This document shows, piece by piece, positions 8,322 through 59,328 of a stretch of 64,000 bases of DNA (position 1 is the first letter of the stretch; every line of letters starts with the position of its first letter). Made by a program: the position numbers and the translations under genes. Origin of the DNA: Anabaena sp. PCC 7108 (GTDB taxonomy: Bacteria; Cyanobacteriota; Cyanobacteriia; Cyanobacteriales; Nostocaceae); assembly GCF_000332135.1 (NCBI RefSeq), contig NZ_KB235896.1, positions 1-64,000 on the forward strand, given 5' to 3'. The notes under the pieces are model-generated. The model saw nothing but the letters and a program-made list of their open reading frames with translations, made no database searches and was not told where the DNA came from.

Positions 8322-10088
8322 TCATTTAATTGCTGCACGTTGAGTTTGATAAATATGGATTTGGTCTACTAAACCCTGAATACCAGGAACATCAAAACCA
8401 TAACTCTGAAAACCCTTCCCAATAGAATTAGTTAAAACGTCTGCACCTTTACCTTGATAGTAAACAGGAACTGGTCGGTTTGCATGATTTCCCCAACCAT
8501 ATTTAAATTGAGAATTAGAACCCCAAAAATGACCTGCTTTCTCAGGGTCAGATTCAGCCGTTAAAGCTTCTGCACCTTTTAATTTTAAAAGTTGCTCGAA
8601 ATTGGGATTTAAAGTTAGGTAATGATCATGATCTGCGGTGACAATCAGCAGGTTATTTTCCCAACCACCGTTATTTTTAATCCAGTCAATTGTAGTTTGG
8701 ACAGCTTTATCAAAATCTAAAACTGTTCCAATCAAATTATCTAGGTTATCATCATGAGCAGACCAATCAATATCACCACCTTCTACCATTAACCAAAATC
8801 CATCTTTGTCTTTAGATAAAACTTCTAAAGCGGCTTTTGTTAAATCCTGGAGAGTGGGATTTTCATTAATTTCTCTAGCAATAAATGATTTATCTGTTTC
8901 TCCAGGAAGCAGCGGACGAACTGTATCGGGTTTTTGTCCTTGAGAACTAAACAGAGAAAAGATACTCAATCCTGTATTGCTGTAGTCTCCATTAGCGGTA
9001 CTCACAGGGAGATTTCCCTCTTGTCCCCTGGCTCCATATAATCCTAACAAGCGCTGTTTCTGATTTGGATCTAACTGACTCGCAGTCATGGCTAATTTAG
9101 CCGCAGCATCTTGACCCCTTTCTAAAAATGTATAATCGTAGCGGTTGCGATTGGGGTTTTTGCTCAATTCTGCGTAGGTTGATTTCGTAATATATTCAAA
9201 CTTTGTCGGTGGTTCTACTCCCGTTGGTAAAGATTCACTACCAGCACCTGTAAGGGGATGACCACCACCTAAAATCACAGTAGGTTGATAAATGCGGAGT
9301 TCCTGCTGTAAGATATTGTCCAAACTGGGAAAATCAGCATCATATTTATTGCGACGATTAACGTTAGCTGCTGCTGCACCAGGAGTAGCATGATCAATCG
9401 GTACAGAAGTGACAATCCCTGTAGATTTACCAGCATCAGCCGCAGTTTTGAGAATTGTTTCTAGTGGTTTTTCAAATATATCTACGGAAATAGCGTTGTT
9501 ATAGCTTTTAACTCCGGTATAAAGAGTAGTAGCTGTGTTGGCTGAATCAGGATAACTGTGCTTGATGTATTCAGGGTCATTTCCAGGTGTCCAAGGATTT
9601 ATCCCCCCACGCACAGGATCATAACCGACTAAGTTACCAACAGCATCAGCACTGAGATTTTCTGTACCACCAGATGGTTTATTTCCTGGGTTAAATTTGG
9701 GTTGGAATTTGAAACCTGGTAAAATCGGACTACCACCTGTAATAGAGATAGAGTTAGTTAATGCAGAGTTGCTGGTACTGAAAACGCCATTACCAGGAGC
9801 AATAGTTGTACCATAGGTTGTAGCTAGGGCGTAATTCTCCAGGCTTTGGAAGCTGAGTCCTTCTCCTTTCCCAGATTTGTAATTATATCCTTTAGCAACA
9901 GCCGCAGCGCGAGCCATTTCCCAACCCATACCATCCCCAATCATGAGAATTACGTTCTTGGTATTGGTTAAATTTATCGCTGGGGCGGAATTAGAAGCAA
10001 TAGCTCCGGCTACAATCATGATCAGGGTGAAGATTCCAGCCAATAAACTGACCGTTAATCGAAATTGTGGACTAGATTTAACTACCAT
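8322..10088 (-). CDS. Alkaline phosphatase (PhoA-type), exported
   Basis: 588-aa phosphomonoesterase of the PhoA superfamily. The metal site starts with VILMIGDGMGW, the nucleophilic Ser sits in the DSANTATTL motif, and further metal ligands appear in VPIDHATPGAAAA, EGGDIDWSAHDDN and TADHDHY. An N-terminal hydrophobic segment (LTVSLLAGIFTLIMIVAGAIA) acts as signal peptide or membrane anchor, so it works in the periplasm or at the cell surface releasing phosphate from organic esters. The start is set at 10088 because a strong Shine-Dalgarno (GAGGAGGC, 10098-10105) lies 9 nt upstream; the longer frame to 10151 places that site inside the coding region. No clear Pho box was found in the short divergent gap to psb28. 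Confidence 0.93.
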   Translation of the reverse strand: MVVKSSPQFRLTVSLLAGIFTLIMIVAGAIASNSAPAINLTNTKNVILMIGDGMGWEMARAAAVAKGYNYKSGKGEGLSFQSLENYALATTYGTTIAPGNGVFSTSNSALTNSISITGGSPILPGFKFQPKFNPGNKPSGGTENLSADAVGNLVGYDPVRGGINPWTPGNDPEYIKHSYPDSANTATTLYTGVKSYNNAISVDIFEKPLETILKTAADAGKSTGIVTSVPIDHATPGAAAANVNRRNKYDADFPSLDNILQQELRIYQPTVILGGGHPLTGAGSESLPTGVEPPTKFEYITKSTYAELSKNPNRNRYDYTFLERGQDAAAKLAMTASQLDPNQKQRLLGLYGARGQEGNLPVSTANGDYSNTGLSIFSLFSSQGQKPDTVRPLLPGETDKSFIAREINENPTLQDLTKAALEVLSKDKDGFWLMVEGGDIDWSAHDDNLDNLIGTVLDFDKAVQTTIDWIKNNGGWENNLLIVTADHDHYLTLNPNFEQLLKLKGAEALTAESDPEKAGHFWGSNSQFKYGWGNHANRPVPVYYQGKGADVLTNSIGKGFQSYGFDVPGIQGLVDQIHIYQTQRAAIK

Positions 10089-10097
10089 AGGTAAAAT

Positions 10098-10105
10098 GCC
10101 TCCTC
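10098..10105 (-). promoter_or_regulatory. Shine-Dalgarno site of alkaline phosphatase
   Basis: GAGGAGGC on the minus strand, 9 nt from the ATG at 10088. It decides that start over the upstream in-frame candidate at 10151. Confidence 0.8.
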
Positions 10106-10156
10106 TATGATGAGAGAATATTACATAATGATCACAAAACTTAAAATTCATTCATC

Positions 10157-10492
10157 ATGGCAAAAATTCAGTTTTCTAAAGGCGTTGACGAAGAAGTAAT
10201 TCCAGAGGTACGCTTGACGCGATCGCGCAGTGGTGATCAAGGTACAGCAACATTTATTTTTACCAATCCTCAGATTTTAGGTCAAGGTAATACTGAAGAA
10301 ATCACGGGGATGTACATGATTGACGAAGAAGGTGAAATAATCACCCGCGAAGTTAAGGGTAAATTTGTCAACGGTAGACCAGAAGCGTTAGAAGCCGTTT
10401 ACCTGATGAAAACCCCCGCAGAATGGGAGCGATTTATGCGCTTTATGGATCGTTATGCCCAAGAAAACGGTCTAGGATTGAGTAAATCCTAA
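10157..10492 (+). CDS. psb28: Photosystem II assembly protein Psb28
   Basis: 111-aa Psb28, a soluble cytoplasmic-side factor that binds photosystem II assembly intermediates near CP47 and cytochrome b559. Full-length match to the family: starts [13 protein letters not shown], has [15 protein letters not shown], the [14 protein letters not shown] strand pair, and the C-terminal [19 protein letters not shown] helix. It is transcribed divergently from the alkaline phosphatase, whose start is 69 bp away, so both promoters are confined to that gap. It confirms an oxygenic phototroph. Confidence 0.97.
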
Positions 10493-15688: not shown

Positions 15689-17134
15689 ATGCAAATTCAC
15701 ACCCCAGACTGGGTAAAACACGCAGTTTTCTACCAAATCTTCCCCGACAGATTCGCTAAAAGCCAACAACCACATAAACGATTATTAAATAATGCAAAAT
15801 GGGAAAATTGGGATGCAAAACCCACACTCCAAGGTTATAAAGGTGGAGATTTATGGGGAATTTTAGAACAATTAGACTATATTCAAAGTTTAGGAATTAA
15901 CGCCATTTACTTTACACCCATCTTTCAATCAGCTTGTAATCACCGCTATCACACCCATGATTACTATCAAGTTGATCCAATATTGGGAGGAAATGAAGCC
16001 TTTAAAGAATTGCTAGATGCAGCCCATCAACGCAATATTAAAATAGTTCTCGATGGCGTTTTTAATCATGCGAGTCGGGGTATATTCTTTTTTCACGACA
16101 TCTTAGAAAATGGACCACATTCACCTTGGGTAGATTGGTTTAAAATCGAAGGTTGGCCGCTTGCACCATATACAGGTGATGCACCTGCTAACTACGAAAG
16201 TTGGGCAGGAATTCGCTCTTTACCAGTATTTAACCATGATAACCCAGATGTGCGCGAATACATTATGGAAATTGCCGAATATTGGCTTAAATTCGGTATT
16301 GATGGTTGGCGATTAGATGTACCTTTTGAAATCAAAACTCCTGGGTTTTGGCAAGAATTTAGAGAAAGAGTAAAAGCCATAAATCCCGATGCTTATATTG
16401 TCGGAGAAGTATGGACAGATTCCCGTCAATGGTTAGATGGAAACCAATTTGATGGGGTAATGAATTATTTATTTACTGGTCCGACTATTGCCTTTACCGC
16501 AGGTGATCGTGTAGACTTAGAACAAGTAAAAGGACGGGATTATAAAACCCATCCACCATTATTTGCTGCTGACTACGCCGAAAAAATAGAAGATTTATTA
16601 AAACTTTATCCTTGGGAAATTCAGCTAACACAACTTAATTTATTAGCAAGTCATGATACAGCCAGATTAATTACCATTGCAGGTGGTGATATTGCAAGTA
16701 TGGAATTAGCAACTTTACTGTTATTGACTTTTCCTGGTGCGCCAAGTATATATTATGGTGATGAAGTTGGTTTACCTGGTGGATTAGATCCCGATTCTCG
16801 TCGTGGTTTTCCGTTAACAGAAAATTGGAATTTAGAAATTCTTGATCTTCACAAACAATTAATTTCTCTGCGTCATCAATATCCAGCTTTGCGAATTGGT
16901 AAATATCAAATTCTTTATGCACAAGGAGAATTATATATCTTTGCCAGAACTTTAGAAACTGAGGAATTAATTATTGCTGTGAATGCGGGTACAGAAACTG
17001 CAACAGCTAACGTAGATTGTAGCAGTTTACAAACTCAACCGCATCAAGTTTTATTTGGTAATGGAGAAATTGAGTGGAATAGTAAAAATCTTGGTTTAAC
17101 TATTCCTGCGCGTACTGGTTGCATTTTGGGTTAA
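15689..17134 (+). CDS. GH13 alpha-amylase family enzyme (neopullulanase/cyclomaltodextrinase-like)
   Basis: 481-aa (beta/alpha)8 glycosidase. Catalytic residues are visible: nucleophile Asp in GIDGWRLDVPFEI, acid/base Glu in AYIVGEVWTD, and the third Asp in LNLLASHDTAR; the conserved LDGVFNHASRG motif is also present. It begins DWVKHAVFYQIFPDRFA, typical of the cyclomaltodextrinase/neopullulanase subgroup but without the N-terminal carbohydrate-binding domain. No signal peptide, so it acts on internal maltodextrins or glycogen fragments. Its stop codon overlaps the stop of the convergent HNH gene: the bases TTAA at 17131-17134 serve both. Confidence 0.93.
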   Translation: MQIHTPDWVKHAVFYQIFPDRFAKSQQPHKRLLNNAKWENWDAKPTLQGYKGGDLWGILEQLDYIQSLGINAIYFTPIFQSACNHRYHTHDYYQVDPILGGNEAFKELLDAAHQRNIKIVLDGVFNHASRGIFFFHDILENGPHSPWVDWFKIEGWPLAPYTGDAPANYESWAGIRSLPVFNHDNPDVREYIMEIAEYWLKFGIDGWRLDVPFEIKTPGFWQEFRERVKAINPDAYIVGEVWTDSRQWLDGNQFDGVMNYLFTGPTIAFTAGDRVDLEQVKGRDYKTHPPLFAADYAEKIEDLLKLYPWEIQLTQLNLLASHDTARLITIAGGDIASMELATLLLLTFPGAPSIYYGDEVGLPGGLDPDSRRGFPLTENWNLEILDLHKQLISLRHQYPALRIGKYQILYAQGELYIFARTLETEELIIAVNAGTETATANVDCSSLQTQPHQVLFGNGEIEWNSKNLGLTIPARTGCILG

Positions 17135-17376
17135 ATGTCGAAATGTCGGTGGAAACGATTGTCTATTTTATCTGTTTTTTGCTGATTACAAGTTAAGCAG
17201 AGAGTTTGTAAATTACTAATATCGTTTTTACCACCACGAGATAAAGGGATAATATGATCAATGCTGAGATGAGTTTCTCCAGAGATTTTACCGCAGCTTT
17301 GACATTGATATTTATCCCTTTGGAAAACGTAGGTTCTGACTTCTGGGGGTATGGGGATTCGTGGAGTTTTATTCAT
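17131..17376 (-). CDS. HNH endonuclease
   Basis: About 81-aa HNH nuclease. It contains the treble-clef Cys pairs CQSCGK and CLTCNQ and the HNH core LSIDHIIPLSRGGKNDISNLQTLC. Such small enzymes nick or cleave double-stranded DNA; free-standing cyanobacterial copies are common and often orphan. The start is put at the ATG giving MNKTPRIP (17376). The longer frame to 17409 runs into the inverted-repeat arm at 17384-17420, whose translation is not family-like. Its stop codon overlaps that of the GH13 gene. Confidence 0.88.
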   Translation of the reverse strand: MNKTPRIPIPPEVRTYVFQRDKYQCQSCGKISGETHLSIDHIIPLSRGGKNDISNLQTLCLTCNQQKTDKIDNRFHRHFDI

Positions 17377-17383
17377 GTTTTTG

Positions 17384-17420
17384 TTTCGCGCAAAGTCGCA
17401 AAGGGGCAAAGTCGCAAAGG
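17384..17420. repeat. Left inverted-repeat arm beside KGK gene
   Basis: A 37-bp arm starting TTTCGCGCAAAGTCGCAAAG and made of CGCAAAG/GCAAAGT heptamers. It matches the reverse complement of 17883-17919 at 34 of 37 positions. Confidence 0.85.
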
Positions 17421-17994: not shown

Positions 17995-20505
17995 CTACAT
18001 CACCCTCATAGAACCACGAGTTACACCCAATTGATTTTGCAATTTCAACTCTCTCCAAATTTGAGAACCTGTGATTTCTCCTTGCAAAAGTTGTTGATAA
18101 TAATCTATTGTTTTGATCACTTGTTCTGGTGTTTCGTTGAGAAATTCAATTCTCAAATGTTGTAAACCCAAACTTATTAATCTTTGTACATATTCTGCAC
18201 CAGTTTGTGCAGTGCCGTTATATACTGTATTTCGACATCCTGAATCTGCTTTAAGGATGTGTTCACTACCTACTCTATCTTTAATTTTGACTTCTTGTTT
18301 TTCACAAGGTCTACCACAATTGGTGTAATCTGTTCCTGTAGAGAGGAAAGCGCAAAACACGCAATGTTCCATATGAAACATTGGTATATGTTGATGTATT
18401 GTCACTTCAAAATTTTGTGCTGGGAAATTTGTAATTAAATCTTCAAGTTGGTTAATATTTAGGTCGTAAGATGCTGTTAATCGTTCTAAATTAAAGCGTT
18501 GTTCAAAGTAATCTGCTGTTAAAGGATTAGCAATATTTAAGGAAAAGTCAGCCACACATCTTTCATCAGCAAAATATTCTAATTGGTCATAATTTCTGAT
18601 TAAATAACCATCAGCATTCGCAGCGCGAACTTGTTTTAAAATCCAGGTTTCTCCAGATTTAGTTATCCGAGGTGGTGCTACAAAGATGCTGACATCTTCT
18701 TTACATTCCCGCACTATTTTTACTGCTTCTTGATAATTGCGAGGATTTTCAAATTCACAATAAACTGTTTTGATATCTGCTGTTAATGCTGCTTTTAGTT
18801 GTTTGATATTTCTAACTAAAACAATCAGAGAAGGTAAAGCTGGAATAGGTGTAGATTTAGAAGTAATTAAATCTTGCCATTTTGCATGATGATTTAATTG
18901 CCAAAATTTGGGTTTCTTCCTTAATTCTTCTAATTGAGAGACTATTTCCCGACGCATTCGGTTTAATTCACTCACGGGTAACATGATATTACCGTTGAGA
19001 TGATTAATGAAATTGTCTAAATAGAAAGGAGTATTTCCTAAACGTCCAAATTGTTCTTTTATCCTTTCTGTAGTCAGAGGTTTGGTGTGTGCTTCTACAA
19101 CCAATATTTCTGATTCTACTTGAACTATATTACCAAATTCATCACGAGCGATAGCAATTAATTTATCGCCAATTTCCCCATATACCTCTATATTAATAGG
19201 TTTAGGAAAATGTGGATTTTCTCCAGCATAACTTTGACGGATTTGTTTATCTAGTTCTGGATCATTTGTCTTCCAAACTTTATCACCTATATTTATCCGT
19301 CGAAAGTTCAAATTATTTTTGCCAAAACTTAATATTGCGTCTTTACCTTTTTGGATAACTGCATATATTCTTCCCCCTTCTTCCTTGGTTTCTGGATGTC
19401 CACAATCAAAAACAATCCCGTCCCCTGGTTTAACTGGTGCTTCCAGTTTCACGGTAATTTGTTCATTGTAAATGCGGGTAACTTCTCCTAAATAAACACC
19501 GCGTTTTTTTCCAAATCTCGCGTGAACCAGTTCTTGATTATTAATTCCCTCAAACCAACCTGTGTAGAGTCCGCGAGAAAATGCCATTTCTAAATTATAT
19601 TGGTCTTTTCTCCCATCAAATACCTTTTGTAGAGATTTTGAATGCAAAGTCTCGATATTAATTGTTGCTATTCTATCTAATGCTTTTCGATAAACTTGGG
19701 TAACGTTAGCAACATATTCTGGTGCTTTCAAACGTCCTTCTATTTTTAAACAAGTAACTCCAGATTTTACTAATTCAGGTAATACTTCCAACCCGGCTAA
19801 ATCTTGAGGACTAAGTAAATATTTGCGATTATCTAAATTGACAATTTCTCCATCTGCAATTAAATCATAAGGCATTCGGCAAGCTTGAGCGCATTCTCCC
19901 CGATTTGCAGAACGTCCTCCTAATGCTTCACTCGTTAAACATTGTCCAGAATACGCGACGCACAAAGCACCGTGGACGAAAACTTCTAAAGGTAAAGAAG
20001 TATTCTTTTGGGTAATTTGTTGTTGAATTTTATTAATTTCTGTAATCGAACATTCCCGCGCTAAAACTACCAATTGACAACCGAGAGATTTTGCAAATTC
20101 TACCCCCGCAGCACTGGTAATAGTCATCTGTGTTGAAGCGTGAATAGGAAAGTCTGGGGAAAGATGACGAATCAGCCGACAAATTCCTACATCTTGAACG
20201 ATGACAGCATCAACACCCGCAGAAATGATGGTTTTGAGGTATTGCTGTGCTTCCGTCAGTTCCTGGGGGAAAATCAGGGTATTCAGGGTGACGTAACCTT
20301 TGACTCCGCGTAGGTGCAGAAATTCCATTAATTCAGGTAAATCTGCTTCTGTGAAATTCTCAGCCCGCATTCTGGCGTTAAACTTATCTAAACCAAAGTA
20401 AATTGCATCTGCACCATTTTCTACTGCGGCTTTCGCGCATTCCCAATTACCCGCAGGTGCTAAGAGTTCGGGGAGTTTGAGGATAGGTGTGGAGATGCTT
20501 GTCAT
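17995..20505 (-). CDS. U32 family peptidase / RlhA-like tRNA-rRNA hydroxylase
   Basis: 836-aa member of the U32 family. The N-terminal TIM barrel begins LLAPAGNWECAKAAVENGADAIYFG, and the U32 signature is at residues ~193-215 (LGGRSANRGECAQACRMPYDL), whose Cys residues with others probably bind an iron-sulfur cluster. A middle DUF3656-type region and a second barrel follow, ending with another Cys cluster (HMEHCVFCAFLSTG, CGRPCEKQ). Proven members hydroxylate RNA: RlhA acts on 23S rRNA C2501 and TrhP on tRNA uridine, both using prephenate-linked chemistry, so RNA hydroxylation is a better guess than proteolysis. The long two-barrel form fits cyanobacterial versions. It stands alone. Confidence 0.88.
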   Translation of the reverse strand: MTSISTPILKLPELLAPAGNWECAKAAVENGADAIYFGLDKFNARMRAENFTEADLPELMEFLHLRGVKGYVTLNTLIFPQELTEAQQYLKTIISAGVDAVIVQDVGICRLIRHLSPDFPIHASTQMTITSAAGVEFAKSLGCQLVVLARECSITEINKIQQQITQKNTSLPLEVFVHGALCVAYSGQCLTSEALGGRSANRGECAQACRMPYDLIADGEIVNLDNRKYLLSPQDLAGLEVLPELVKSGVTCLKIEGRLKAPEYVANVTQVYRKALDRIATINIETLHSKSLQKVFDGRKDQYNLEMAFSRGLYTGWFEGINNQELVHARFGKKRGVYLGEVTRIYNEQITVKLEAPVKPGDGIVFDCGHPETKEEGGRIYAVIQKGKDAILSFGKNNLNFRRINIGDKVWKTNDPELDKQIRQSYAGENPHFPKPINIEVYGEIGDKLIAIARDEFGNIVQVESEILVVEAHTKPLTTERIKEQFGRLGNTPFYLDNFINHLNGNIMLPVSELNRMRREIVSQLEELRKKPKFWQLNHHAKWQDLITSKSTPIPALPSLIVLVRNIKQLKAALTADIKTVYCEFENPRNYQEAVKIVRECKEDVSIFVAPPRITKSGETWILKQVRAANADGYLIRNYDQLEYFADERCVADFSLNIANPLTADYFEQRFNLERLTASYDLNINQLEDLITNFPAQNFEVTIHQHIPMFHMEHCVFCAFLSTGTDYTNCGRPCEKQEVKIKDRVGSEHILKADSGCRNTVYNGTAQTGAEYVQRLISLGLQHLRIEFLNETPEQVIKTIDYYQQLLQGEITGSQIWRELKLQNQLGVTRGSMRVM

Positions 20506-20593: not shown

Positions 20594-21244
20594 TTATAAG
20601 TCGTATAAATTCTTAAACCAATTTATAAATCCTTGCACTTTGGGAGTTTGTGGATTTAAAATATTGTACTTGATAGCTTGATGTATTTGTCTCCCTGGTT
20701 CATCTTGCCATGCTAACCAAGTGTAAATTTCCGCTTTATCAATATAAGATTCTTTAAATGTTGCTCCTTTATTTTTTGCCTCTTTTGCTACCTCCTGTGC
20801 ATATACCCAAAGTTCTTCTCCTTGTTCTGGAATCATATAACCTAAAAAAGTTTCTAACATCCCTTCTATGATGTTATCTGGCATAAGCCAAACACCAAAT
20901 TTCTTATCATCTGGTGTGTTAATAATTAATCCTGTTTCTGGTATTTCTTCAGGAAGATTAGGAATATTTGACACACAAGCATTTCTGATACTTTGCCAAC
21001 GTAAAGACGCATCATCATCTGCATCTACCATTAAACCTAAATGTGTGCATCTTCCAGTTTGTAATTCTGTATATATAAGATCAGCAGTAATGTTTTCATA
21101 ACCTCCACATTCTTGAATTGATATAATTGATTCTTCTTTCTTTTCACCCCAAGTAATTCCATTTTTTTCAATTAATTCTGGTATAACTCGTAAATCATCT
21201 TGACCTTCAACTAACAACTTCTTGGGGTTATAATGTTTTGCCAT
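20594..21244 (-). CDS. DUF3226 protein (Toprim-like nuclease candidate)
   Basis: 216-aa protein of the DUF3226 family. The N-terminus reads KLLVEGQDDLRVIPELI, where the Glu fits the conserved Toprim Glu, and residues ~72-82 read LGLMVDADDDA, matching the Toprim DxD. The C-terminal half has a helical WLAWQDEPGRQIHQAIKY and PQVQGFINWF-like segment seen in family members. Start codon follows the stop of the upstream ATPase gene by two bases (stop TAG 21247-21249, ATG 21242-21244), so the two are translationally coupled. With an ABC-like ATPase partner this resembles two-gene anti-phage modules such as PARIS (AAA plus DUF4435), but identity with any described system is not shown. Confidence 0.8.
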   Translation of the reverse strand: MAKHYNPKKLLVEGQDDLRVIPELIEKNGITWGEKKEESIISIQECGGYENITADLIYTELQTGRCTHLGLMVDADDDASLRWQSIRNACVSNIPNLPEEIPETGLIINTPDDKKFGVWLMPDNIIEGMLETFLGYMIPEQGEELWVYAQEVAKEAKNKGATFKESYIDKAEIYTWLAWQDEPGRQIHQAIKYNILNPQTPKVQGFINWFKNLYDL

Positions 21245-21246
21245 TG

Positions 21247-22392
21247 CTAACGTACCTCAAGTTCTCTTTCAGCAGCAATGGCAATTTGCTTTTCAGTAAA
21301 AACTATACTTTTTTCTTTACCTTTTTCAATTCTATGAATTCTAATACCATCATCAGTTGCATCTTCTTGTTCTGCGATATCAGCTAAACTTTTCCAACAA
21401 TCACTATTATGTGTAGTTGCAAAAACTTGTACATTTAATTTTTTCGCTGTATCCCAAATCATTTTCCACATATCGGACATAGCAGTAAAATGAAGTCCTG
21501 TATCTATTTCATCTACAAATAAATAACCATCTTTAGCGCATACGGTAGACAATGTAAGTCCTAAAATCCTCCAAATTCCATCTCCCATACTACCAATTGG
21601 TACACGCTTACCATCAGAAAGAAGCACAAGAAAACCACCCCGCGAATCTAAGGAATATCTTAATTTTTGAGAACTAACTGGAGCAATACGTTGAATTTTA
21701 GAGTCTATTCTCTGAAGTGCCTCCTCTACAATTTTTTCTTTAGGGGTTAATACTAACTGATCAAATAGCTCAATCATTTCCTCAGTTTTTAAAGAAGATG
21801 ATTTAATAAATTGCGTTTTTGGTGTTCTACTTGCACTTAAACTTTTCCTATGACGGAACATCATAATAGAGTCTATAGGAAGTCCACCGTCAGGTGATAT
21901 ATATAATGGTAATTTCTCTGATGGTTGCTCATCTCGTATCCATGTAACAATAAAGCCAAGTTTCTTTAAATCATCAAAAAATTCATCATTTGAACTAACT
22001 TGTTTTTCGGAAATATTAGTTTCATCATAACCATAGCTGGTATTATTTGCACGAAGCATGGCTATCAATATATCAAATTTTTCCTGAGTATTGTCGTTAA
22101 TAACTGATATAGAAAGTTTGCTCCCAGGTTCTATCTCATGACCATAAAAAAGGTGACGAATATCAAGTTGACGCTCTCCTTTACCATCATCACTCCACAA
22201 ATACTCACCTCGGTTAATCATTATCTCACCAAGTGGTTCAAGATTAGTACCTGAACATAAAAGTTGAATAGCTTCCAGTATTGATGTTTTTCCGCTATTA
22301 TTGTCACCAACAAGCAGATTAATTCTACCAAGCTGCTGAAGTTCAAAAGATTTGAAACCTCGAAAATTCTCTATTTTTACGCTCTTCAACAT
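21247..22392 (-). CDS. AAA/ABC-type ATPase, partner of DUF3226 protein
   Basis: 381-aa SMC/ABC-like ATPase of the AAA15/AAA_21 kind. Walker A is VGDNNSGKTSILEA near residue 32, the signature region is SMGDGIWRILG, Walker B is GYLFVDEIDTGLHF, and the H-loop region is FATTHNSDCW. The middle is the family's variable insertion. The start is placed at the ATG at 22392 (MLKSVKIENFRGFKSF); a TTG seven codons upstream is also in frame. It is the first gene of the coupled pair with DUF3226. ATPases of this kind sense invader DNA or proteins and activate a Toprim nuclease partner in several defence systems. Confidence 0.85.
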   Translation of the reverse strand: MLKSVKIENFRGFKSFELQQLGRINLLVGDNNSGKTSILEAIQLLCSGTNLEPLGEIMINRGEYLWSDDGKGERQLDIRHLFYGHEIEPGSKLSISVINDNTQEKFDILIAMLRANNTSYGYDETNISEKQVSSNDEFFDDLKKLGFIVTWIRDEQPSEKLPLYISPDGGLPIDSIMMFRHRKSLSASRTPKTQFIKSSSLKTEEMIELFDQLVLTPKEKIVEEALQRIDSKIQRIAPVSSQKLRYSLDSRGGFLVLLSDGKRVPIGSMGDGIWRILGLTLSTVCAKDGYLFVDEIDTGLHFTAMSDMWKMIWDTAKKLNVQVFATTHNSDCWKSLADIAEQEDATDDGIRIHRIEKGKEKSIVFTEKQIAIAAERELEVR

Positions 22393-22599
22393 AACTTTCC
22401 TAACTAGAGACAACAGAGCAAGAACTGTTATTCATATCAGCACTGCTGACACCTCCTACTCTAGCAAAAATAGAAAATTATCAATAGTTGTATAAAAAAT
22501 TAGATAGTAAAATGTAAAAAAGTATAATAGATACCCTAAATAATCTACAATCAGGAACTAAACTGTTTTCTTGCCCTAACTCGGTAAAATAGTATATTT

Positions 22600-55565: not shown

Positions 55566-57077
55566 TTACATTTGGCGTTCAATGCGTTCACTTAAAGGAT
55601 TATGCTTTGAAGCCAGACGCGCCCTTCCCGCAGCAGCCCATTCTTGTAGTTTTTGAATCTGTTCCACCGCAGTTCGTGCTAAAGGGATGATTTGACTAGC
55701 CGCTTCTAAAATATCATCAGTTGTAAAATCACGGTTTTGGCTAAAACCAATGTGCATGGCTTCAATTAACGTTTGTTCAATCTCTGCACCGGAAAAATCA
55801 GGGGTTTCATAGGCTAATCTCTCGATTTCATAGCTTTTCAAATTGTGGGGACGCAATCTGGATAAATGGACGTTAAAAATGGCTTTTCTCTCTTCTTGGC
55901 TAGGTAAACCGACAAAGAAAATTTCATCAAATCGCCCTTTCCTCAACATTTCTGGGGGTAAAGCTTGAATATCGTTAGCGGTAGAAACAACAAACACCGG
56001 AGAAGTTTTTTCGGCTAACCAAGTGATAAACGTCCCAAAGACTCGGCTAGTTGTTCCTGCGTCACCTTTACTACCCAACCCCGAAAAAGCTTTATCAATT
56101 TCATCAATCCACAATACACAGGGTGCGAGGGCTTCAGCGACTTGAATCATTTGGCGAGTGCGGGATTCTGATTCACCGACTAAACCGCCAAATAACCGCC
56201 CTACATCTAAGCGTAACAGGGGTAAATGCCAATTATGTGCGATCGCTTTTGCAGTTAAAGATTTACCAGTTCCTTGAATCCCCACCAACATTAAACCACG
56301 GGGGTGCGGTAATCCGTACTGTCGCGCTCGTTCTGTAAATGAACCACCCCGACGGATTAACCAATCTTTAAGGTTATCAAGTCCCCCTATATCAGAAATC
56401 TGCTCAGTAGCCGGGTAAAAGTCCAGGATTTGGGTTTGGCGGATAGTTTGGCGTTTTTCCTCCAAAACTAAATCAACGTCTTCTGGTTGTAATTGTCCGT
56501 GGGATGCTAAAGCCCTCGCTAAAACTCGGCGTATCCTTTCCATAGATAAACCTTGACAAGAACGCACCAAGTCATCAAGAAATTTACCAGAAGGTAAGTT
56601 ACCCGTTGCTTGTAATAACCGTTCTACTTCGGTTTTAATTTCCGCTGCGGCTGGTAAAGGAAATTCAACCACCGTCAACACTTCCATTAAATCGTCAGGA
56701 ATAGCGATACGTGGTGATAATAAAACAATATTTTTCGGTTGGGATTTGAGGAGTCGGGCTAAGTTACGGAGTTTGCGAGAAATGGCGACATCATCTAAAA
56801 AGCGGTGATAATCCCGAAGAATTAAGACTGCTGGGGCTGAAGCTGGTAATTTTTCGATAAATTCTAATGCTTGTAACGGGTTGCGCTTCCCAAACCCCAC
56901 ATCATTGGGGTTTCCTTGATAACCATCGACAAAATCCCAGGTATAAACGGGGCGATTTCCTTGGTTTGTGGCTTCTTCACGGATAGCGGCTTCTACCCGT
57001 TCTTCTTCGTAGGTGGGAATATAAATCAGCGGGTAGCGGGCGCGGAGGAGGAGTTTAAATTCGTCTCGGAAGTTCAT
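55566..57077 (-). CDS. ycf46: Ycf46-type AAA+ ATPase
   Basis: 503-aa protein of the Ycf46 family, found in cyanobacteria and some plastid genomes. The N-terminal half (RYPLIYIPTYEEERVEAAI, LILRDYHRFLDDVAISRKLRNLARLL) is a degenerate AAA-like module; the C-terminal half is an active AAA domain with Walker A MLVGIQGTGKSLTAKAI near residue 268, Walker B CVLWIDEIDKAF, and ELRKGRFDEIFFV-type sensor. In Synechocystis it has been linked to inorganic-carbon related regulation. Gene orientation is opposite to the sbcC and GGDEF genes. Confidence 0.92.
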   Translation of the reverse strand: MNFRDEFKLLLRARYPLIYIPTYEEERVEAAIREEATNQGNRPVYTWDFVDGYQGNPNDVGFGKRNPLQALEFIEKLPASAPAVLILRDYHRFLDDVAISRKLRNLARLLKSQPKNIVLLSPRIAIPDDLMEVLTVVEFPLPAAAEIKTEVERLLQATGNLPSGKFLDDLVRSCQGLSMERIRRVLARALASHGQLQPEDVDLVLEEKRQTIRQTQILDFYPATEQISDIGGLDNLKDWLIRRGGSFTERARQYGLPHPRGLMLVGIQGTGKSLTAKAIAHNWHLPLLRLDVGRLFGGLVGESESRTRQMIQVAEALAPCVLWIDEIDKAFSGLGSKGDAGTTSRVFGTFITWLAEKTSPVFVVSTANDIQALPPEMLRKGRFDEIFFVGLPSQEERKAIFNVHLSRLRPHNLKSYEIERLAYETPDFSGAEIEQTLIEAMHIGFSQNRDFTTDDILEAASQIIPLARTAVEQIQKLQEWAAAGRARLASKHNPLSERIERQM

Positions 57078-57333: not shown

Positions 57334-59328
57334 TTAATTAACTTTCTTCAAGCATTCTTTTAACTCTTCTACCAATTCAGATAAGAACTCTGGCTGATAT
57401 TTAATTATCCATTCTGTGAGTTTTTTTGAGTGAGTGGTTTTCTTAAACTCTAATAGAGTTTCACAGAAGTTTTGGAACAAATTTTCAAGAATATTCGCCC
57501 CATGAACTTTAGACAACCAATTCTCATCTGCAACATCTTTTTCTTTGACACCTGGAAGCAAATAACTTTTTTCGGTTTTAATCTTCTCTAAATATTCCTG
57601 AACTTGATTTATAGTTATAGGTGTTTCTAGCCATACAGCTTCTTCATTAATTATTGCTGTTATTGCTTCTGGGTTAAGAAGGATATAATTTTCATACATA
57701 GGTAGTTTTAAAAACTTAAATCCTATCCTCTGTAAATCTTCAATCTGCTTGTCCGTTTTCTTTTCTCTATCAAATATAAATATAGATTTCTCTGGTATTA
57801 GGCTTATTCCTGATTTGAGTTTGTCATAAATATTAGCTACAAGAGAGGAGTGCTTACCATCAAGTAGCGCATCTGTACTTTTTACAGATAGAATTTTCAT
57901 GCCTTTCAATGGCATTTCTACTAGAAATTTATCTATAATTAGAGGAAAACATTTTTCCTCAGTCGGACCTTCAACCCAAAGAACACTATCAGCACCAAAA
58001 ACATCTGATAATCTAACTCCTAGTTCATCTAAAATTTCCTTTTGTAGATTTATATCTTTTGCATCTATGACTGATGTAGTTGTTTCACAATTTTCATATT
58101 TCAGCTTGATAATATTAGAAGGATCTGCTGTTGTGATAATATCTGGTGAATGAGTAGAAATAAAATATTGATGCTGGGGAAATTGTTTAATAGTCTTTAT
58201 CAGCTTTTTCGCTGCACCTGGATGTAAAAATGATTGTGGTTCATCAATAATTAATGTTCTAGGTTCTTCAGAATAAACTAGGATATATACAATTGCTAAT
58301 ACTTGACCAACTCCACTTCCACATGATGATAGAGGAAGTGATAAATCATCTTTGTTAAGTTGAGGATCTATTATCCAAACCTTAATTTCAACCTCTGAAT
58401 TATCTCTTGGTACTACAGAAATCCATTTTATTTCCTCCAGAATTTCTGAAACTAGTTTATTGAATTTGGCAAATGTCCCTGGATTTTTACCTTGCAATAT
58501 ACATATTGATTCAGCAAGATTAGAAGCATCTGATTTGAGTTGTTCATTATTTTCAAATTTGCAACTACCAATATTTTGACGTTCAGCTTTAAATCTGTAA
58601 ATACGACTTACAAAAATGTCAAATAGTTTGTAACCTATTGTCTCTTCGTTTTTGGGCTGATACTTCATAAAAGTTTTTTCTTGTTCATATTTTTCTTCTA
58701 TGTCGTTATAAATATCCACAACATGACATTCTTCAATATCCATGTTGTCATCTCCATATATAAATTTGTAAAAATGGTGGCTTATTTTATTAGAATATGC
58801 CCCCAAAATCATTAGTTCGTCTGTTAACTCATTATCAATTAGTCCATTGGGAAGTATAGTTACTGTTAGTTCTGTATCATCTGGATTGTCTATAAAATTC
58901 TTAAGTTTTTGAAATGCTTTTTTCACCAATTGATTAATTTTATTTTCACTATCATAATTGTAACCTTCTGCATCTCTTCCCATATCATATAGAGAAATTT
59001 CAACTATATCATCATCTACATCACCCTCTGGTAGAGGAAATAGAAAATTGGGAGAGTAATTTTTTATAAAATTTCGCAATTTATCTTTCTCAATTTGCAA
59101 AGTAATTTCTATTTTTGATTCTTCTTCTATCCTCGAACTCTTATTTGGTAATGTCTTTAAACTTTTATGTGTATGATCTTCTTTAAAATCCAGTGTCATT
59201 ACCTCAAGTAAAGATGTTTTACCTGCATTATTTTTTCCAACAATAATATTGACACCTGGCGCAAATTCCATTACCCCAGAGTCGAAATAAGACTTATAAT
59301 TATATACTCGCAGCTTCTTGATATACAT
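57334..59328 (-). CDS. OLD-family ATPase-Toprim nuclease
   Basis: 664-aa overcoming-lysogenization-defect type protein: an SMC/ABC-like ATPase fused to a Toprim nuclease. Walker A is VGKNNAGKTSLLEV near residue 32, the signature region is LSSCGSGVGQVLAI, Walker B is TLIIDEPQSFLHPG, and the H-loop is STHSPD. The Toprim half starts VLWVEGPTEEKCFPLI near residue 455 and has the Asp in IFIFDREKKTD. No UvrD helicase gene follows, so it is a class 1-like stand-alone OLD (not Gabija). Such proteins cleave DNA and are linked to phage defence. It neighbours a MazEF-like pair. Confidence 0.86.
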   Translation of the reverse strand: MYIKKLRVYNYKSYFDSGVMEFAPGVNIIVGKNNAGKTSLLEVMTLDFKEDHTHKSLKTLPNKSSRIEEESKIEITLQIEKDKLRNFIKNYSPNFLFPLPEGDVDDDIVEISLYDMGRDAEGYNYDSENKINQLVKKAFQKLKNFIDNPDDTELTVTILPNGLIDNELTDELMILGAYSNKISHHFYKFIYGDDNMDIEECHVVDIYNDIEEKYEQEKTFMKYQPKNEETIGYKLFDIFVSRIYRFKAERQNIGSCKFENNEQLKSDASNLAESICILQGKNPGTFAKFNKLVSEILEEIKWISVVPRDNSEVEIKVWIIDPQLNKDDLSLPLSSCGSGVGQVLAIVYILVYSEEPRTLIIDEPQSFLHPGAAKKLIKTIKQFPQHQYFISTHSPDIITTADPSNIIKLKYENCETTTSVIDAKDINLQKEILDELGVRLSDVFGADSVLWVEGPTEEKCFPLIIDKFLVEMPLKGMKILSVKSTDALLDGKHSSLVANIYDKLKSGISLIPEKSIFIFDREKKTDKQIEDLQRIGFKFLKLPMYENYILLNPEAITAIINEEAVWLETPITINQVQEYLEKIKTEKSYLLPGVKEKDVADENWLSKVHGANILENLFQNFCETLLEFKKTTHSKKLTEWIIKYQPEFLSELVEELKECLKKVN

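Follow-up and report, generated by a model that had tools for sequence, protein, structure and literature searches.

A DUF3226 gene pair of Anabaena sp. PCC 7108 and the exchangeable cassette of its ATPase

The window analysed here, the whole stretch of 64,000 nucleotides from positions 1 to 64,000 of contig NZ_KB235896.1 (GCF_000332135.1, Anabaena sp. PCC 7108), carries on its minus strand two adjoining genes, one for an AAA_15-type ABC ATPase and one for a protein of the DUF3226 family. As judged from sequence comparison of close units, ATPase residues 41-262, between Walker A and the ABC signature, are an exchangeable cassette, and the C-terminal tail of the ATPase together with DUF3226 is a second module, whose parts move together. 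The pair is already known as the candidate PDC-M38, and very probably has to be counted as that listed phage-defence candidate; the exchangeable ATPase cassette is new here. The choice of trigger is open for most ATPase-Toprim systems, and near-isogenic natural alleles, distinguished mostly by a single bounded block of the ATPase, would allow the sensor part to be pinned down directly. The docking element is likewise indicated, since ATPase tail and nuclease are inherited together.

Alignment of close units showed the ATPase to be far more variable than DUF3226, chiefly in its middle. Pairwise comparisons were carried out on 58 distinct units (DUF3226 score at least 200, ATPase score at least 300, length at least 190, identical units collapsed). 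Of the 42 pairs with DUF3226 at least 93% identical in nucleotides, the middle was below 70% in 29 and not in 13; with a second definition of the middle (residues 49-250), 26 of the 42 were cassette-swap pairs. In these 26, mean nucleotide identity was 93% over residues 1-42, 51% over the cassette, 94% over the signature/Walker B block and 97% over both the ATPase tail and DUF3226. The cassette edges, at residue 41 and about residue 262, are sharp on average. The reverse was also observed. DUF3226 was below 90% identical (down to 70%) in 12 of the 20 pairs with a cassette at least 93% identical, and in these effector-swap pairs the means were 77% for the tail, 80% for DUF3226 and 95% for the core. 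Pairs of both kinds overlap one another and do not count as independent events. Cassettes 95-99% alike in nucleotides were found between units with DUF3226 only 70-78% identical. Because both kinds of pair occur, the cassette is one exchangeable module, and the tail with DUF3226 another.

Exchange was also seen at one chromosomal site. Nine units were fetched from one genus (g112), and seven of them share both flanks (segments of about 93-98% nucleotide identity, with indels). Two cassettes, about 38% identical in nucleotides, are divided among the seven: one is found in four units (L107, L108, L110, L111), the second in three (L106, L109, L112). Of the other units, L113 has just the 3' flank in common with them, and no placement was obtained for L114. 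The genus also has two tail/DUF3226 types, which occur with the two cassettes in all four combinations (L111, L113, L107, L114). In the Dolichospermum/Anabaena/Aphanizomenon/Sphaerospermopsis group, sets of 5 and of 4 units with near-identical DUF3226 each comprise 4 cassette types. One type of cassette was found together with 6 DUF3226 groups (93% nucleotide cut-off), and one set of 2 units has a single cassette. A second clade, distant in DUF3226, was represented by 44 units (DUF3226 score 100-160). The dip in identity was present in 8 of its 14 close pairs (e.g. L072/L082, L064/L084, L071/L074), one of the 8 with a partial ATPase (L077); the other 6 showed no dip, and no effector-swap pair was found in this clade. 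Several lineages of cyanobacteria thus show the cassette pattern.

As a control, alaS near the unit was never below 74% identity in any 300-nucleotide window (66 pairs). In the approximately unbiased (AU) test, the DUF3226 and cassette topologies rejected each other (p-AU 6e-99 and 2e-5), but the trees came from fast searches, the 5000 replicates drew an IQ-TREE warning of being too few, and the log-likelihood gaps are suspiciously large. The pairwise and four-combination evidence is therefore preferred. Within the terms searched, the open-access literature yielded no account of such systems exchanging a cassette of the ATPase.

The ratio of nonsynonymous to synonymous substitution rates (dN/dS) among three close alleles of one cassette type was 1.06-1.43 in the cassette. 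For block 2 with the tail the same alleles gave 0.08-0.42, and for DUF3226 0.16-0.19. Cassette ratios in other comparisons were 0.07-0.73, except for one value of 1.61 that comes from very few changes. Silent divergence between cassette types was 0.8-2.7 in the cassette, as against 0.12-0.35 for block 2 with the tail and 0.08-0.13 for DUF3226; in block 1 it ranged from 0.09 to 0.96, the edge being less clean in some pairs.

The preliminary description of the window had proposed an ATPase gene with GDNNSGKTS and FVDEID motifs, followed after two bases by DUF3226. Both open reading frames, the motifs and the 2-bp gap (TG) were confirmed (Table 1); the exchangeable cassette had no place in that description. 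The ATPase translation holds Walker A GDNNSGKTS, signature PIGSMGDG, Walker B LFVDEID and H-loop TTH, and the key residues of these motifs are conserved in 101-105 of 106 ATPases, signature position 271 being D in only 79. The segments VEGQDD (E13) and DADDD (D74/D76) of the DUF3226 protein, proposed beforehand as Toprim Glu and DxD, are present and near-invariant in a set of 102 distinct DUF3226 proteins of at least 190 amino acids. K170, invariant in the same set, is a candidate counterpart of the catalytic Lys of OLD-family nucleases. In Pfam, the effector matched DUF3226 (1.8e-70) and the ATPase AAA_15 (3.9e-28); the OLD-like_TOPRIM match on DUF3226 is sub-threshold (9e-4), and this match was seen in 17 of 24 aligned proteins.

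Table 1. Coordinates of the gene pair, its parts and the adjoining gene in the window.
Feature	Position	Strand	Remark
AAA_15 ABC ATPase gene	21247..22392	-	ATG start, 381 aa; TTG at 22413 also open (388 aa)
Conserved block 1, ATPase residues 1-40	22273..22392	-	Walker A at 22282-22308
Exchangeable cassette, ATPase residues 41-262	21607..22272	-	predicted recognition module
Conserved block 2, ATPase residues 263-348	21349..21606	-	ABC signature, Walker B, H-loop
ATPase C-terminal tail, residues 349-381	21250..21348	-	predicted docking element; exchanged along with DUF3226
DUF3226 gene	20594..21244	-	216 aa, ATG start; predicted stand-alone Toprim nuclease (effector)
Toprim Glu (E13)	21206..21208	-	E in 101/102 distinct proteins, 1 gap
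Toprim DxD (D74-A75-D76)	21017..21025	-	both D in 102/102
Invariant Lys (K170)	20735..20737	-	K in 102/102; candidate catalytic Lys
U32 peptidase gene	17995-20505	-	

Folds were compared by re-alignment of the top 1000 Foldseek matches. The DUF3226 model shows a Toprim fold, which the comparison supports; its top fold match is 2p62 (PH0156), with no sequence match, and a search of solved structures by sequence gave no convincing DUF3226 match with either a single protein or a profile (best E 1.4 and 0.58). The model of the ATPase supports an ABC-head fold of the Rad50/SMC/PtuA/AriA-like kind, the closest structural likeness being to Rad50/SMC heads.

Loci collected by DUF3226 alone were used to examine the association of the two genes. 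A same-strand ATPase frame lies no more than 700 nucleotides upstream of 143 of 150 DUF3226 frames in the fetched loci; these are frames and not genomes, the loci overlap (some genomes appear twice), and some frames are fragments. Fetching was confined to loci with the stronger DUF3226 matches, and a clade of weaker ones, with many frames of 230-285 amino acids, was left out. Of the seven frames lacking an ATPase, that of L050 starts 771 nucleotides from a contig end, two belong to the broken L057, and at L065=L140 and L081=L119 the ATPase profile gave no match. Because 143 of 150 frames have an adjoining ATPase, the pairing is not due to chance. The proposal of a complete two-gene unit is supported by this adjacency and by a plasmid gene table described below, and no further functional partner is evident, yet the U32 peptidase gene is co-directional and lies 88 bp downstream of DUF3226.

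The distribution of PF11536 (DUF3226) is patchy: it was found in 49 of 100 relatives at E ≤ 1e-3 and, within the order, in 188 of 388 sampled genomes at E ≤ 1e-10. Among five genomes of the genus searched, a close copy is present only in that of the window. At 12 of 13 loci the pair lies at variable distance 3' of alaS, the exception being L033; these loci come from the Dolichospermum/Anabaena/Aphanizomenon/Sphaerospermopsis group, together with an uncultured genome and one of Richelia. The closest named flank match of the window unit is Trichormus sp. NMC-1 (87-95% of nucleotides over several kb). At the same site this strain retains a remnant (L059, about 9745-10163) comprising roughly the first 28 ATPase codons and DUF3226 residues 167-216, and the sequence between the ATPase start and the DUF3226 end does not align to the window. 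Protein searches matched eight plasmid records (nine with another query), of which three were examined. For a mobilisable Citrobacter plasmid of 6.4 kb, the gene table lists, apart from the ATPase and DUF3226 pair, only three genes for replication/mobilisation and one further small gene. The pair is also present on a small Acinetobacter plasmid, and on a large Plesiomonas plasmid (L061) it lies downstream of genes for tail tape measure, tail protein X and VgrG-type proteins, with two frames of unknown function between; this is possibly a prophage cargo site. A DNA-level search of E. coli gave no match to the Citrobacter and Plesiomonas pairs. Two frames of about 755 amino acids (G063:C38 and G051:C454) gave weak DUF3226-like matches (5e-4, 8e-4) and are perhaps single-chain relatives.

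These features lead us to consider it probable, with some reserve, that the pair is a PDC-M38-type abortive-infection unit of the OLD/PARIS/AbiL superfamily, with the cassette as recognition module and DUF3226 as a restrained nuclease. The ABC ATPase would bind and restrain the separate Toprim nuclease, docked through the C-terminal tail, which is the predicted docking element for DUF3226. A trigger, probably a phage protein, would be read by the stretch that runs from the Walker A helix to the ABC signature; on meeting the trigger, the ATPase would change state and free or activate DUF3226, which would then cut cellular nucleic acid (tRNA or DNA), so that the infected cell stops. Cassettes differ between strains on a common chassis and are swapped by recombination. 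A cassette that reads the trigger and a tail that serves as dock would account for the exchange of the middle beside a fixed ATP site, and for the joint travel of tail and nuclease. A comparable arrangement is described for PARIS, in which the sensor ATPase AriA holds the Toprim tRNase AriB until a phage protein binds AriA (PMC12409363), and in E. coli TOPRIM_OLD toxins are neutralised by AAA partners (PMC10440598). More tentatively, PDC-M38 may be a combinatorial immune receptor in which a fixed ATP-binding chassis accepts exchangeable cassettes and tail-plus-Toprim modules. Cyanobacterial populations would reshuffle both, through homologous recombination at constant positions in the chromosome and under selection of a diversifying or balancing kind, with specificity and output inherited separably.

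Several observations weigh against such a defensive function. Defence genes were not enriched beside the pair (14 loci, 104 proteins against 139 controls, E ≤ 1e-15), in a coarse test that covers the 25 commonest families; its controls were taken from the same genomes at a distance of about 0.7 Mb, with one protein (a 5.7-kb frame) omitted. The expected proximity to other defence genes was thus not seen, and the defence-island context was dropped as an argument for defence. A phage collection gave no match to two DUF3226 queries, and 25 pattern hits in IMG/VR, obtained with two short peptide patterns only, included no relative. Confidence of the structural model is moderate, and the archaeal OLD protein Cran1 is reported as a cell-cycle and not an antiviral protein (PMC12796447).

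The cassette might instead diversify so as to evade inhibitors encoded by phages, or to detect plasmids or competing strains, and not to recognise different phage triggers. Two g112 cassettes alternating at one site with both flanks in common would fit any antagonist that touches this surface, as would the raised dN/dS in one allele group, and no phage-linked context was found in cyanobacteria. In PARIS, however, it is the ATPase that encounters the trigger (PMC12409363), so that trigger sensing is the simpler reading; inhibitor escape is accordingly considered unlikely, and the cassette is suggested to read a phage trigger.

It is rather improbable that the two genes act as a toxin-antitoxin or plasmid-maintenance pair, in which the ATPase would neutralise a Toprim toxin with no phage sensing. 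Small plasmids do carry the pair with few other listed genes, and in E. coli AAA proteins neutralise TOPRIM_OLD toxins, such pairs scoring as toxin-antitoxin in assays (PMC10440598). But many copies are located on long contigs at sites common to several genomes, an addiction pair gives no reason for swapping an ATPase block while tail and effector stay, and deletion of ariA or ariB alone is not toxic in PARIS (PMC9122126). A host function in repair or the cell cycle, as proposed for Cran1 (PMC12796447), would agree with the Rad50/SMC-like head and with the stability of some copies near alaS, but is quite improbable for a pair that is absent from about half of the near-complete relatives, decays, travels on plasmids and recombines a hypervariable block. 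That the variable block is just a weakly constrained linker or insertion is the least credible reading: two low-confidence model stretches within the cassette (residues 117-139 and 181-202) and its many indels would suit it, but near-identical cassettes beside divergent DUF3226, sharp average edges, and silent divergence far above that of the flanking parts, a contrast that drift alone does not give, all speak for a functional module.

No recognised defence gene adjoins the window pair. Its divergent upstream neighbour encodes a mandelate-racemase-type (MR_MLE-family) protein, and a gene for a DUF1611 protein is also nearby. A small HNH endonuclease gene (92 amino acids, 17131-17409, minus strand) about 3 kb from the pair matches a PADLOC type II restriction model at 1e-9. 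Further away on the minus strand, a single-chain ATPase of 664 amino acids (57334-59328) has a weak OLD-like Toprim match, with AriA, HEC-01A, Old and GajA as best PADLOC hits, and the adjacent AAA+ ATPase gene (55566-57077) gives IetA matches in PADLOC (4.7e-23). Upstream of the pair at another locus (L054:6590-8197) is a second AAA_15 ATPase (535 amino acids, best PADLOC hit AriA). Single defence-like neighbours at the fetched loci, namely PIN and HNH proteins, a PD-T4-6-type kinase and mad3/mad8 matches, were hand-picked with no control and carry little weight.

Among known systems, PDC-M38 is the best match for both proteins, near full length: the ATPase matches PDC-M38A (9.2e-96, 1-383 of 383) and the adjacent DUF3226 protein PDC-M38B (2.3e-75, 11-219 of 220). 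PDC-M38 is a bioinformatic phage defence candidate of PADLOC-DB 2.0.0 (2023), whose listing gives models only and no cassette. The DUF3226 family is common, yet no mention of DUF3226, PF11536 or PDC-M38 was found in the open-access literature searched. The preliminary view of an under-described defence system is fair in this respect, but the pair was already listed as a candidate. The ATPase also matches AbiLi (6.5e-55, 1-340 of 340), and the likeness to AbiL of Lactococcus (AbiLi and AbiLii), a two-gene ATPase and OLD-type Toprim system (PMC10440598), lies in the AbiLi-type ATPase. The partner here is DUF3226 and not AbiLii/RloB, for which the window protein gave no match (PADLOC and Pfam, E ≤ 1), nor did any of 24 aligned proteins (Pfam, E ≤ 0.1).

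With PARIS (AriA and AriB) the pair shares an ABC ATPase and a Toprim protein split into two genes, with folds judged from models. The discovery paper detects PARIS by an effector with DUF4435 (PF14491) (PMC9122126); DUF4435 was found neither in the window effector (E ≤ 1) nor in the 24 aligned proteins (E ≤ 0.1). Cassette exchange is not mentioned for PARIS in the excerpts of PMC12409363 and PMC9122126. In the class scheme of a review of OLD nucleases (PMC10568477), the likeness to OLD class 1, and to Gabija GajA, lies in the ABC head type and an OLD-type Toprim, but ATPase and Toprim form one chain there and two here. The Toprim domain with Glu and DxD is the feature shared with the OLD superfamily at large. 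Gabija further includes GajB, a UvrD-like helicase, whereas the neighbours here are the U32 peptidase and MR_MLE genes and no helicase. The proposed ATPase-Toprim logic, like that of PARIS and OLD, largely holds. In type I restriction, HsdS subunits exchange a recognition block between conserved parts; the proteins and chemistry differ from those of the ATPase cassette, and only the evolutionary logic is common to both.
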